A stretch of 64,000 bases of DNA, from assembly GCF_027257155.1 (NCBI RefSeq), contig NZ_JAPWDU010000002.1, forward strand, positions 310,001 through 374,000, written 5' to 3'. How positions within the stretch are numbered: position 1 is the stretch's first letter; each line of letters begins with the position of its first letter. This DNA is from Cerasicoccus sp. TK19100 (GTDB lineage: Bacteria; Verrucomicrobiota; Verrucomicrobiia; Opitutales; Cerasicoccaceae). Positions 10,367-15,590 of the stretch are shown one piece after another. Below the pieces are notes generated by a model. The model was not told where the DNA came from and made no database searches. It was given only the letters and a program-made list of their open reading frames with translations. Both the position numbers and the translations under genes were made by a program.

Positions 10367-10705
10367 TTAAACAACCGAGTCCCCGCCCTCGCCAGTGCGG
10401 ATGCGGGTAGCGGATTCCAGCGGCGATACGAAGATTTTGCCGTCGCCGATTTTACCCGTTTTCGCGGATTCGGAAATGGCCTCAATGGCGGCTGCTACTT
10501 TGGCGTCAGTTACCCCGATGTAAAGTATCAGCTTGGGAAGAAAATCAACGCGGTACTCGTTGCCGCGGTATATTTCGGTATGTCCTTTTTGTCGGCCAAA
10601 GCCTTTCACTTCGGCAATAGACATGCCTTCGATGCCTGCTTTTTGCAGGGCGTTTTTAACGTCATCCAGACGGAATGGTTTTATGATTGCGGTGACTAGT
10701 TTCAT
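10367..10705 (-). CDS. glnB: Nitrogen regulatory protein PII
   Basis: A trimeric 2-oxoglutarate/ATP sensor that adjusts ammonium uptake and glutamine metabolism. The 112-residue form starts at [17 protein letters not shown]. The T-loop [15 protein letters not shown] has Tyr51, the classical uridylylation site, and the B-loop shows [11 protein letters not shown]. The frame is open 20 codons further upstream but that part is not family-like. It lies downstream of amt, the usual amt-PII linkage, with a 136-base gap that contains a strong hairpin. Confidence 0.95.
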
Positions 10706-10726
10706 GATGGTTTTGGGGACCGGTAA

Positions 10727-10750
10727 CCACGGGGGAATTAGCCCCCGTGG
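10727..10750 (-). other. Perfect 9-bp hairpin between amt and PII genes
   Basis: CCACGGGGG (10727-10735) and CCCCCGTGG (10742-10750) with a 6-base loop. It lies after amt and before the PII gene in the direction of transcription. No T run follows on the minus strand, so it may act as an mRNA-processing or stability element that sets the ratio of the two products. Confidence 0.6.
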
Positions 10751-10841
10751 CACCAGATTGATCATCTCTATTTTTAGTCAGCAAGCGTAGCAATGTTGCC
10801 TGGTCAGCAGAGGTGGCTTACGCCACTAAGATTAAATCAGC

Positions 10842-12299
10842 TTAAAGCGGCTCATCCGCATATTGCTGGAAGTCAGCGTAGGCTTCGTTGCCGTGCTCGC
10901 CAAGGTCGAGGCCTTCGAGCTCTTCTTCAGCACTGACGCGCAGACCGACCATTTTGTCGATTGCCCAGAACATGCCGTAGGAGCAGATGAAGGTGAATGC
11001 AAAGACTGCGGCCACGCCGAGGAGCTGAATGCCCAACTGCGATACACCACCGCCGTAGAAGAGTCCGTCTTTAATTGCAGTATCGGCATCCCAGAAAACG
11101 GTGTCGATCGCGGCGCTACCAAAGAAGCCGATGGACAGAGTGCCCCAGGCACCGCAGACGCCGTGCACCGATACAGCACCAACCGGATCATCGATTTTGA
11201 GCGTGCGCTCTACGAAGAGAACGGAGAACACCACGATGACACCACCCACGAGGCCGATGATCACGGCGGACAGCGGTGAAACACTGGCGCAAGGAGCGGT
11301 AATCGATACCAGACCAGCCAGACAGCCATTAATCGTCATGGACAAGTCGGGCTTACCAAACTTTACCCAAGTGGTGATGGCGGCAGCGCAAGTGCCAGCA
11401 GCAGCAGCCAGCAGCGTGGTCATCGCGACGTAAGCCAAGCCATCAACGGCAGCCAGCGTGGAGCCGGCGTTAAAGCCGAACCAACCGAAGAAGAGGATGA
11501 AGCCACCCAGGGTTGCCATGGGCAAATTGTGTCCGGGAATCGGTAATGCTTTGCCGTCTGCGCTGTATTTGCCTTTACGGGCACCCAGGATCATAGCACC
11601 CGCCAGACCAGCCCAGGCCCCGACTGAGTGCACCACCGTGGACCCGGCAAAATCTCGCATCCCCATGCCGCCGAGCCAACCGTCGCCGGACCAGATCCAG
11701 TGACCGGTGATCGGGTAAAGAATCGCGGTAATCGCAACTGAATACATCACGTATCCGATGAACTTCGTGCGCTCAGCCATGGCACCGGAAGCAATCGTGG
11801 CTGCGGTTGCGGCGAACACCACCTGGAAGACCCAGCCCGCTGCTTCCACCGAAGCGGCCTCAGCATTTTCCGGCGAGACGATCGCGGCTTCCATGAAGAA
11901 ATATTCGGGCGACCAACCGATGAAACCATCCCCCGAGCCATACATCAGCGAGTAGCCAACCGCAAGGAACGCAATGGCACCAAAGCCAAAGTCGAGGAAG
12001 TTCTTCATCATAATGTTACACGCGTTTTTGGCGCGGGTCAGACCGGACTCGACCATGGCGAATCCTGCCTGCATGAAGAACACCAGCACCGCAGCCAGCG
12101 TAAGCCAAAGAATGTCGCCCGTCACCTGCGGCAGCATTGCCGGAGCCTCGGCGGCTTCTTCCACGACTGCTTCAATCACGGCAGGCTGTTCCGTGATCTC
12201 TTGGCCGTGGGCGGTTAGCGAAAACATTGAAACAGCTAACAGGCCAAACAGGCACAGCCAGCGCTTCCAATTCAGGAGATTCATTTTGTTCATGGTCAT
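10842..12299 (-). CDS. amt: Ammonium transporter Amt
   Basis: A trimeric channel that imports ammonium across the inner membrane. The 485-residue protein starts with a signal-like hydrophobic stretch (about 11-30) and a short Glu/Ala-rich acidic segment, followed by about 11 helices. The twin histidines of the pore are His224 (STVVHSVG) and His379 (VSVHGVCG). The conserved PIPGHNLP and FGWFGFNAGS motifs are also present. It begins 20 bases after a degenerate NtrC-like regulator gene and is followed by the PII gene. The cytoplasmic tail is short and acidic. Nearby in-frame ATG codons make the exact start uncertain by a few residues. Confidence 0.96.
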   Translation of the reverse strand: MTMNKMNLLNWKRWLCLFGLLAVSMFSLTAHGQEITEQPAVIEAVVEEAAEAPAMLPQVTGDILWLTLAAVLVFFMQAGFAMVESGLTRAKNACNIMMKNFLDFGFGAIAFLAVGYSLMYGSGDGFIGWSPEYFFMEAAIVSPENAEAASVEAAGWVFQVVFAATAATIASGAMAERTKFIGYVMYSVAITAILYPITGHWIWSGDGWLGGMGMRDFAGSTVVHSVGAWAGLAGAMILGARKGKYSADGKALPIPGHNLPMATLGGFILFFGWFGFNAGSTLAAVDGLAYVAMTTLLAAAAGTCAAAITTWVKFGKPDLSMTINGCLAGLVSITAPCASVSPLSAVIIGLVGGVIVVFSVLFVERTLKIDDPVGAVSVHGVCGAWGTLSIGFFGSAAIDTVFWDADTAIKDGLFYGGGVSQLGIQLLGVAAVFAFTFICSYGMFWAIDKMVGLRVSAEEELEGLDLGEHGNEAYADFQQYADEPL

Positions 12300-14158: not shown

Positions 14159-14189
14159 GGCTCTGTCCTCGGGTTGACATGCTGGTTGA

Positions 14190-14504
14190 TTATGACTCGA
14201 GCAATTGTGGGAGAGTCGAAGTGATGTTCGCCTTGTTATCGAACATTACGCCGAGGTCACTGCCTCCGCGCGGCACGATGACCGAAGTCATGCTTTTCCC
14301 GATAATGTGGCCCTCTTCGAGGCCCTCCATTCCGAAAGATTCGCCGATCAGATCCGCTAATTGGTGTACAAACACCATAACGTGCCCCAACGCTTCCGGG
14401 TCTTCGCCCTCAGCGTGTAGCACCTGACCGGTCTCATCGCACTCGATCAATCCTAAGACGCCGGGAAATTGCGGCGTGCCGTATGCATCTTCAGTGATTC
14501 CCAT
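14190..14504 (-). CDS. Roadblock/LC7-domain protein
   Basis: 104 residues of compact Roadblock/LC7 design: PGVLGLIECDETGQVLHAEG at the start, a central helix HVMVFVHQLADLIGESFG, then EEGHIIGKSMTSVIVPRGG and LGVMFDNKANI. Such proteins act as GTPase-regulating or scaffold dimers. It precedes a second Roadblock gene and a degenerate response-regulator gene on the same strand. It is one of few genes here with a plausible ribosome-binding sequence (AAGGGA) about 10 bases before the ATG. Confidence 0.75.
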   Translation of the reverse strand: MGITEDAYGTPQFPGVLGLIECDETGQVLHAEGEDPEALGHVMVFVHQLADLIGESFGMEGLEEGHIIGKSMTSVIVPRGGSDLGVMFDNKANITSTLPQLLES

Positions 14505-14588
14505 AATGTGTCCCTTTCGGACACTAACCTAGCACCTCTGATGCCAGTTGGGCTCACTGGGGGATTTTTTACTGGATTACTCAATCTA

Positions 14589-15590
14589 TTAAGCAATCAG
14601 GCGGGCGAACACCATCTTGCCACCAGCCGACGGCAACACACTGGTCACCTCGACTTTCGCATCCTGGCCAATCATATGTGCGGCCTCATTCACGACGACC
14701 ATCGAGCCGTCACCCAGGTAACCTACAGCTTGCCCGGACTCACGGCCGGTCTTAACCAAAGATAATCGAAGTGTCTCACCAACATCGACTTCCGGATTCA
14801 AAGCTTTTGCCAATGCCGTGATATTCAGCCAATCGACCCCTTGAAACTCTGCCAGTCGGGCCAAGTTATAATCCGTCGTCAGCAATTTCGCCTTCAACGA
14901 CTCGGCGACAAAAATCAATTTTGCGTCCACTTGCTGCCCACGCCCGATCTCACTTTCATGAATCGTGAAGTGGATATGGGGTATAGTACGCAGTTCATTG
15001 AGCACTTCGAGCCCCTTGCGCCCCTTGGCCTGACGGGCAGGATCGGACGAATCTGCGATGTTCTGCAACTCATCCAGCACGAATCGCGGCACCACTAATT
15101 CGGCAATGAGAAAGCGGCTTTGGCAGATGCCAATGATGCGGCCATCGATGAGCGCACTGGTGTCGACCACCACGATGGCGGAGTCCACTTTTTGCGGCAC
15201 AAAGCGCACGTAAGGGATCACCAGGTTGAAGTCGTCGCGACCACGCAGGGCAATCACCGACCCCAAATACATGCAGATGACAAAGAGGCTAAGTCGGACC
15301 AGGTGAATGACTTCCTCATCTCCGTATTCCAGAAGCGGCGATGATGAAATTAAAAATGAAACCAGCGCCCCCATCCCGAGGCCAAAGGTGATCGCCGTCA
15401 GCCCGCGCAAGGAGAAGCCCTTGAGCAGAAGGTCCACGAGGATGGTGAGCATCCCAATCAACCCGCCAATGACCAGGTACAAGCCAAGGCGCTGCGTTGC
15501 CTCGTAGCCTACCGCATACCACAGGAGATATGCCCCCGCAATGCACAACAGGAAGAAGAGAATTCGGATGACTGTAAGCGTTTTATTCAA
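14589..15590 (-). CDS. YacL-type membrane PIN/TRAM-domain protein
   Basis: 333 residues. Four hydrophobic segments lie in the first 115 residues. A PIN nuclease-like domain follows with acidic residues in VVVDTSALIDGRI, VLDELQNIAD, QQVDAKL and LLTTDYNLA. The protein ends in a TRAM beta-barrel (about 270-333). This architecture is that of Bacillus YacL/YlaK-like proteins, thought to act on RNA at the membrane. The frame begins with a TTG codon at 15590, since no ATG gives the first helix. It may be the first gene of the Roadblock-Amt string or follow the 46-residue membrane-protein gene by 83 bases. Confidence 0.9.
   Translation of the reverse strand: MNKTLTVIRILFFLLCIAGAYLLWYAVGYEATQRLGLYLVIGGLIGMLTILVDLLLKGFSLRGLTAITFGLGMGALVSFLISSSPLLEYGDEEVIHLVRLSLFVICMYLGSVIALRGRDDFNLVIPYVRFVPQKVDSAIVVVDTSALIDGRIIGICQSRFLIAELVVPRFVLDELQNIADSSDPARQAKGRKGLEVLNELRTIPHIHFTIHESEIGRGQQVDAKLIFVAESLKAKLLTTDYNLARLAEFQGVDWLNITALAKALNPEVDVGETLRLSLVKTGRESGQAVGYLGDGSMVVVNEAAHMIGQDAKVEVTSVLPSAGGKMVFARLIA

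Follow-up and report, generated by a model that had tools for sequence, protein, structure and literature searches.

What might a pair of Roadblock proteins do beside an ammonium transporter gene when no small GTPase gene accompanies them? The question is raised by a locus of Cerasicoccus sp. TK19100, a member of a genus of the Verrucomicrobiota that also holds Cerasicoccus frondis and C. maritimus. A stretch of 64,000 nucleotides of this genome (contig NZ_JAPWDU010000002.1, positions 310,001 to 374,000), here called the window, was analysed. At 14504-10367 of the window, all on the minus strand, lie five open frames: robA (14190-14504), robB (13628-14158), pNtrC (12320-13570), amt (10842-12299) and a PII gene of GlnK type (10367-10705), separated by 31, 57, 20 and 136 bases. 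An earlier, sequence-only reading of this DNA had given these places, the strand, the order and the four gaps, and all were correct when the frames were re-read. Roadblock proteins are mostly seen as helpers of Ras-like GTPases. The analysis presented here suggests a nitrogen-limitation cassette in which a GTPase-free Roadblock adaptor docks on Amt, a proposal for which the chances are judged to be evenly balanced.

A Roadblock pair beside one clade of ammonium transporters

Sequence searches of Pfam, NCBIfam and the PDB gave no family match for RobA, a protein of 104 amino acids (aa). A structural model and fold search were used because sequence alone gave no Roadblock assignment. The AlphaFold2 model (pLDDT 81, pTM 0.71) has Roadblock topology, with the first helix of the fold not modelled, and the top Foldseek match is Myxococcus xanthus MglB (E 1.1e-5); Roadblock proteins of LAMTOR, dynein and archaea rank lower. 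By its predicted fold, RobA belongs to the Roadblock/LC7 superfamily. RobB (176 aa) has a Roadblock domain followed by a proline-rich tail of low model confidence. The match to Pfam Robl_LC7 is weak (E 0.011, under the curated cut-off), a profile search of the PDB finds the Roadblock structure 7yh1 (E 0.0023), and Roadblock and LAMTOR chains are among the matches in a fold search of the model; by fold and profile, RobB is also a member of the superfamily. Comparison of the RobA and RobB profiles is weak (28 % probability over 35 columns); the kinship of the two rests on fold. PF03259 is too narrow for these Roadblock proteins, since a search of the Cerasicoccus sp. TK19100 genome with this model gave no match.

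The samples comprised 132 genomes of the order, 384 of the class and 387 across the phylum. Within the order, RobA is present in 14 genomes and RobB was matched in 15; the match in G123 was dropped, only its low-complexity tail having matched. All 14 carriers have robA and robB side by side, and amt is next, either after the pair or after pNtrC, in 11 of these, representing six genera and four families. The complete order robA-robB-pNtrC-amt is found in nine genomes (four Cerasicoccus, G083, G022, G033, G049, and G090). Two have robA-robB-amt without pNtrC (G040 and G070, where none was found at E 1e-15) and three have robA-robB-pNtrC without amt, therefore neither amt nor pNtrC is obligatory. 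A pNtrC query (P0003) at E 1e-20 matched 10 of the 132 genomes; with neighbourhoods and a profile, pNtrC is recognized in 12 of the 14 carriers.

Across the phylum sample, the RobB profile matched nine genomes, all within the order, and across the class sample it matched 25, these being 10 in the order and, outside it, two strong matches (G592, E 4.5e-28; G717, E 3.3e-21) and 13 weak ones. The weak matches appear to be short MglB-like genes next to a response regulator and were not counted; surroundings were read for nine of these 13 genomes and for a second, weak match in G592, with the regulator scanned in L199 and not made out in L207. G592, from another order, has the gene order DUF4388-RobA, RobB, Amt, PII. 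The link between Roadblock genes and amt is therefore not peculiar to the genome in which it was noticed. In G717 (L197:6083-9616), DUF4388-RobA and RobB are located behind a FUSC-type membrane protein, and the 19 kb read there contain no amt.

The Amt of the window (485 aa, Pfam E 1.9e-125) is one of 11 Rob-linked Amts of the order which, with three sister Amts (G020, G130, and G105), form a single clade in a tree of 45 Amts (support 99/99; 100/99 in a 46-row tree). These trees leave out the only Amt of G057 and several Amts of other genomes. Carriers hold up to five Amts, and those of their other Amts that are in the tree fall outside the Rob-linked clade; neither RobA nor RobB was seen in the flanks (approximately 0.5 to 1.5 kb) of the other Amt loci covered. 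The Amt of G592 groups with that of G035 (100/99), outside the Rob-linked clade, and because it belongs to a different clade the Roadblock-Amt link must have arisen, or been rebuilt with another Amt, independently, at least twice in all. Resolution in the RobA/RobB tree is poor, good support being limited to three of 15 branches. The distances of RobAB are correlated with those of Amt (r 0.93, for 55 non-independent pairs), a result that vertical descent alone would also give.

Both partners carry lineage-specific tails. As tblastn had clipped the Amts, their tails were read on to the stop codon. In 11 out of 11 Rob-linked Amts the sequence EHGNEAY[AP]DF is followed by an extra [QT][QV]Y-x-D tail, seen in the window as QQYADEPL (10845-10868, minus strand), compared to none of the three sister Amts. 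This YxD tail is also absent from 27 further Amts with printed tails; nine fused Amts are not comparable. G040 and G070, in which pNtrC was not found, have the tail too, therefore it goes with the Roadblock pair, not with pNtrC. RobB ends in R-x-[YFW]-R-G plus three to four residues in 16 out of 16 cases (14 out of 14 cassette RobBs of the order, G592, and G717), regardless of the neighbouring gene; the form in the window is RSYRGSNY (13631-13654, minus strand). Two RobBs linked to rhodopsin genes terminate in GIWG instead. Amts in long frames (698-745 aa; L113, L115, L119, L123, L126, and L128) are apparently Amt-sensor fusions.

The PII gene (Pfam P-II E 9.8e-29) encodes 112 aa if the ATG at 10705 is the start, while the longest frame begins at 10765. 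Previously, PII was taken to be a member of the group. It follows amt at four of the 11 Rob-amt loci of the order, all in Cerasicoccus, as well as in G592, and it also follows all three sister Amts that have no Rob genes; tblastn found no PII in the stretches read at the other seven loci. Based on this patchy adjacency, PII was rejected as a core member and is considered accessory. A PIN-TRAM gene (14589-15590) was also rejected as a cassette member, being at that place only in the four Cerasicoccus genomes among the loci read. Plasmid carriage of RobB was considered and no match was found. In G083 (L058:10904-14887), the gene immediately ahead of the cassette, on the cassette's strand, encodes a hybrid histidine kinase with a receiver and a weak Hpt domain.

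Lost catalytic motifs, the GTPase question and a sigma-54-like site

The third gene encodes a protein of 416 aa, pNtrC, which aligns with NtrC1 across its length and has a degenerate receiver, an NtrC-type AAA core, and a lid (Response_reg E 4.6e-14, Sigma54_activ_2 E 1.6e-8, AAA_lid_14 E 1.8e-9). Among NCBIfam models, NtrC NR(I) matches it best, at E 3.2e-17 and 62.5 bits against a cut-off of 558.6. The AAA+ remnant lacking Walker A, previously noticed in this one protein, is borne out in its aligned homologs, all 12 of which have lost Walker A, GAFTGA and the helix-turn-helix (HTH). The Walker A lysine (GxxGxGK) is absent in 12 out of 12 aligned homologs, which have G-x-x-G-[SA]-E in its place (GEEGSEFE in the window, 12959-12982, minus strand), and no Walker B is recognizable in these 12. 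The GAFTGA segment is deleted in the alignment to NtrC1, shortening the core there, and family scans gave no match to an HTH DNA-binding domain. Where the HTH would come, there is a C-terminal peptide, HLLESVADE (12341-12367, minus strand), the ADE of which is kept in 11 of the 12 homologs, the exception being G050. In the receiver, the phosphorylatable Asp53 is kept in 11 out of 12 and is Glu in G083, the conserved Lys is missing in all 12, and the acidic pair is present only in L056. Judged by these residues, pNtrC would not have a phosphorylatable receiver domain. It is read here as a probable binding protein that has lost its activator role. A second pNtrC copy is present in G049 (L181:8817-12605), where the 18 kb read contain no Roadblock gene.

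The earlier reading had remarked that no small GTPase is present. A search of the 14 carriers with PF00025, a single Pfam model, likewise brought up no GTPase of MglA size, with no search made using an MglA sequence. In 12 carriers this model finds only frames of 364-899 aa, those of 826-899 aa being IF-2 in size and two others being 522 and 364 aa. In G022 and G090 it gave nothing; these should hold at least IF-2, therefore the search is not perfect. The MglA-like proteins L202 and L205, from the same class and used as a detection control, score 27.8 and 29.6 bits against the cut-off of 22.3, therefore an MglA should have shown. The cassette thus appears to lack the MglA-family GTPase of an MglAB-type system. 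This would not be exceptional, as 328 of 749 MglB homologs were without a linked MglA, and at that time not one of them had been characterized, according to the available portion of PMC4316618.

Ahead of robA is a predicted -24/-12 site, TGGCATCAGAGGTGCT (14531-14546, minus strand), 42 nt from the start codon. It is a motif match to the sigma-54 consensus, TGGCAC-N5-TTGC. With start codons chosen by us, a GG-N10-GC element is present within 60 nt of robA at 13 of the 14 loci (scores 8-10 of 11), compared to three of 220 other genes, taken as longest frames, that reach a score of 8. When the longest-frame rule is applied uniformly, the site is found within 60 nt upstream of 11 of the 14 robA genes and three of 227 other genes, and if 100 nt into the frame are included, 13 of 14 and nine of 227. 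At the fourteenth locus, that of G050, TGGCAC is present and the -12 half is mismatched. G592 and G717 also have such sites, which score 10 and 9 of 11 and lie 106 and 72 nt, respectively, ahead of the frame. Four paralogous Rob pairs at rhodopsin and FGE loci have no site scoring 8 in 300 nt. Several other Amt loci of these genomes hold such sites; directly ahead of the cassette Amts, only L050 has one (score 9).

RpoN is present in all 14 carriers, yet it is found in 118 of the 132 genomes and therefore does not discriminate. By its element and RpoN, the cassette is predicted to be a sigma-54-regulated unit, and a nitrogen role is strengthened by the site. The gaps between the cassette genes hold no terminator-like or sigma-70-like site on the coding strand. 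We infer that the cassette is one nitrogen-responsive transcript.

Proposed docking on Amt and the competing explanations

In the proposal made here, the string of genes would be one transcription unit from a sigma-54 promoter, induced together with its Amt under nitrogen shortage. RobA and RobB would pair as a heterodimer, forming a platform, and pNtrC would be an adaptor bound to it. The flexible, proline-rich tail of RobB and the C-terminal peptide of pNtrC would be docking arms, similar to the C-terminal helix of RomR on MglC. The platform would sit at the cytosolic face of Amt, probably touching its extra C-terminal tail, and would tune or cluster Amt, or report its state, beside or instead of PII; a GTPase cycle would not be required. 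The platform, the adaptor, and the Amt C-terminus as docking site are suggested because of the analogy with MglC-RomR and Ragulator, and on that analogy we infer every contact, including the heterodimer and docking on Amt, as well as any effect on transport. For RomR, the C-terminal helix binds the Roadblock protein MglC with a KD of 2.6 nM, as given in the part of PMC12719032 available.

A number of observations weigh against this proposal. The module is rare, and three of its carriers (G050, G055, and G057) have robA-robB-pNtrC with no amt in the 20 kb read, so that Amt is not obligatory; G055 and G057 have the full sigma-54-like site, and that of G050 is a near-miss. G083 has a lone RobB-like gene. 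Conversely, the sister Amts of G020, G130, and G105 belong to the same clade and their genomes have neither RobA nor RobB. The YxD tail is missing from the G592 Amt, and it may be a single inherited change, since within the order all Rob-linked Amts fall into one group (84/78). Lastly, a sigma-70-like match inside pNtrC (12600-12573) could start amt separately; five sigma-70-like matches were found where 3.2 were expected.

It could be that RobA, RobB, and pNtrC are only operon-mates of Amt, forming a signalling unit of their own for nitrogen stress, which would have the sigma-54 promoter in common with amt and never touch the transporter. The three carriers without a nearby amt suggest this, as does G717, in which robA-robB has a sigma-54-like site beside the FUSC-type protein. 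However, the link in the order is to one Amt clade despite the presence of up to five Amts per carrier, it has re-formed with another Amt clade in G592, and the Amt tail is Rob-specific; separate units are therefore considered unlikely, while remaining a serious rival. It is quite improbable that pNtrC is instead a decoy, forming dead mixed oligomers with NtrC-type activators and so damping the sigma-54 nitrogen response, with the Roadblock proteins controlling its availability at the membrane. This would account for the match to NtrC NR(I), far under cut-off as it is, for the AAA core and lid being kept when Walker A and GAFTGA are gone, for the sigma-54-like site, and for the second pNtrC of G049, which has a glutamine synthetase gene (PF00120 E 2e-18) at a distance of approximately 1.5 kb, with an opposite-strand gene between. 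It would not be expected from G040 and G070, which keep Rob-amt and in which pNtrC was not found, nor from a core shortened at the former GAFTGA.

A polarity module had also been raised by the sequence-only reading. In this case RobA and RobB would act like MglB and MglC with a missed small GTPase, placing Amt or other proteins at the pole. A Roadblock pair with a receiver protein does resemble MglB-MglC-RomR, the cassette of G050 is divergent from an mreB gene, and the GTPase search was imperfect, with no match at all in two of the 14 genomes. However, in the other 12 every frame matched by PF00025 is 364-899 aa long, while the MglA-like controls exceed the cut-off, and the MreB link was rejected as it is at a single locus. 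No evidence for polarity was found and this is considered very improbable. Docking on Amt is preferred. A wider form of it is somewhat unlikely: Roadblock heterodimers in these bacteria would be general GTPase-free adaptors that serve membrane transporters and correspond to Ragulator, with pairs at Amt (under nitrogen control), at rhodopsin (with the GIWG tail), and at the FUSC-type protein, and a lone RobB at a Kef-type antiporter.

Other Roadblock genes and known systems

Additional Roadblock genes are present in these genomes. In Cerasicoccus sp. TK19100 itself, a second Rob pair is directly upstream of a microbial rhodopsin gene (L065:8964-12763, contig C1 approximately 845960-849760; PF01036 E 4e-38), followed by lycopene cyclase and beta-carotene 15,15'-dioxygenase; the RobB tail is GIWG. 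In G055 (L061:8504-11922), a Rob pair is ahead of a rhodopsin read in two frames (9386-9637 and 9679-10122), followed by two proteins that are receiver-like by eye and have no Pfam receiver match. A rhodopsin link was rejected as a rule, since the pair is in the flank of two of 13 rhodopsin-bearing genomes, using profiles that include those two. The lone RobB-like gene of G083 (L062:7346-9762) is just after a Na/H exchanger-TrkA_N (Kef-type) antiporter. In a third type, RobA is followed by a RobB running on into an FGE-sulfatase domain protein (scanned in L063:380-2618 and L182:6401-8717); RobA of this type is found in the four Cerasicoccus genomes, G040, and G070. In the window, two genes upstream of the cassette, a TPR protein with a C-terminal FGE-type domain (15804-17660) is similar to the RobB-FGE protein of L063, with which it shares 36 % identity (E 2.6e-10).

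Among known systems, MglA-MglB-MglC-RomR of Myxococcus xanthus also combines two Roadblock proteins with a receiver-domain protein, and the RobA model matches MglB. In contrast, the cassette occurs where no MglA-sized GTPase was found, its receiver protein is derived from NtrC, and it is associated with amt and a sigma-54-like site, not with motility. In Ragulator, the Roadblock heterodimers LAMTOR2/3 and LAMTOR4/5 are a membrane-bound nutrient-sensing scaffold (PMC5680233, in the part available), and the RobA and RobB models match LAMTOR chains. The cassette is bacterial, with no Rag GTPase or p18 anchor seen, and the comparison is only one of a possible way of working. The Conservon CvnABCD of Actinobacteria likewise has a Roadblock protein, CvnB, in a signalling operon; that operon also includes the GTPase CvnD and a histidine kinase, both of them missing from the cassette (PMC4316618, available portion). 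The orphan MglB homologs described there are numerous Roadblock proteins without a linked GTPase, for which the available portion of the paper names no amt, PII or sigma-54 link.

With NtrC-family sigma-54 activators, pNtrC shares the receiver-AAA core-lid architecture and differs in having neither the Walker A lysine, GAFTGA, HTH, nor a recognizable Walker B. In AmtB-GlnK, an Amt has a cytosolic PII partner encoded alongside, as in Cerasicoccus and G592, where PII follows amt. Here, however, the Roadblock pair and pNtrC are extra, and most Rob-amt loci of the order have no PII gene in the stretch read. In the open-access literature, searched by titles and the beginnings of abstracts, with subscription journals mostly outside this scope, none of the papers listed connects Roadblock proteins of bacteria to Amt, PII or rhodopsin.

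These genomes have a conserved Roadblock pair where no MglA-sized GTPase was found, the commonest partner of which is a nutrient transporter. The cassette gives a hint that a protein platform could work together with that transporter without a GTPase. If this is true, it would provide a small, testable model for the role of orphan Roadblock proteins, a further regulator for the Amt/PII field, and a parallel in bacteria to the Roadblock scaffolds that take part in nutrient sensing at eukaryotic lysosomes.

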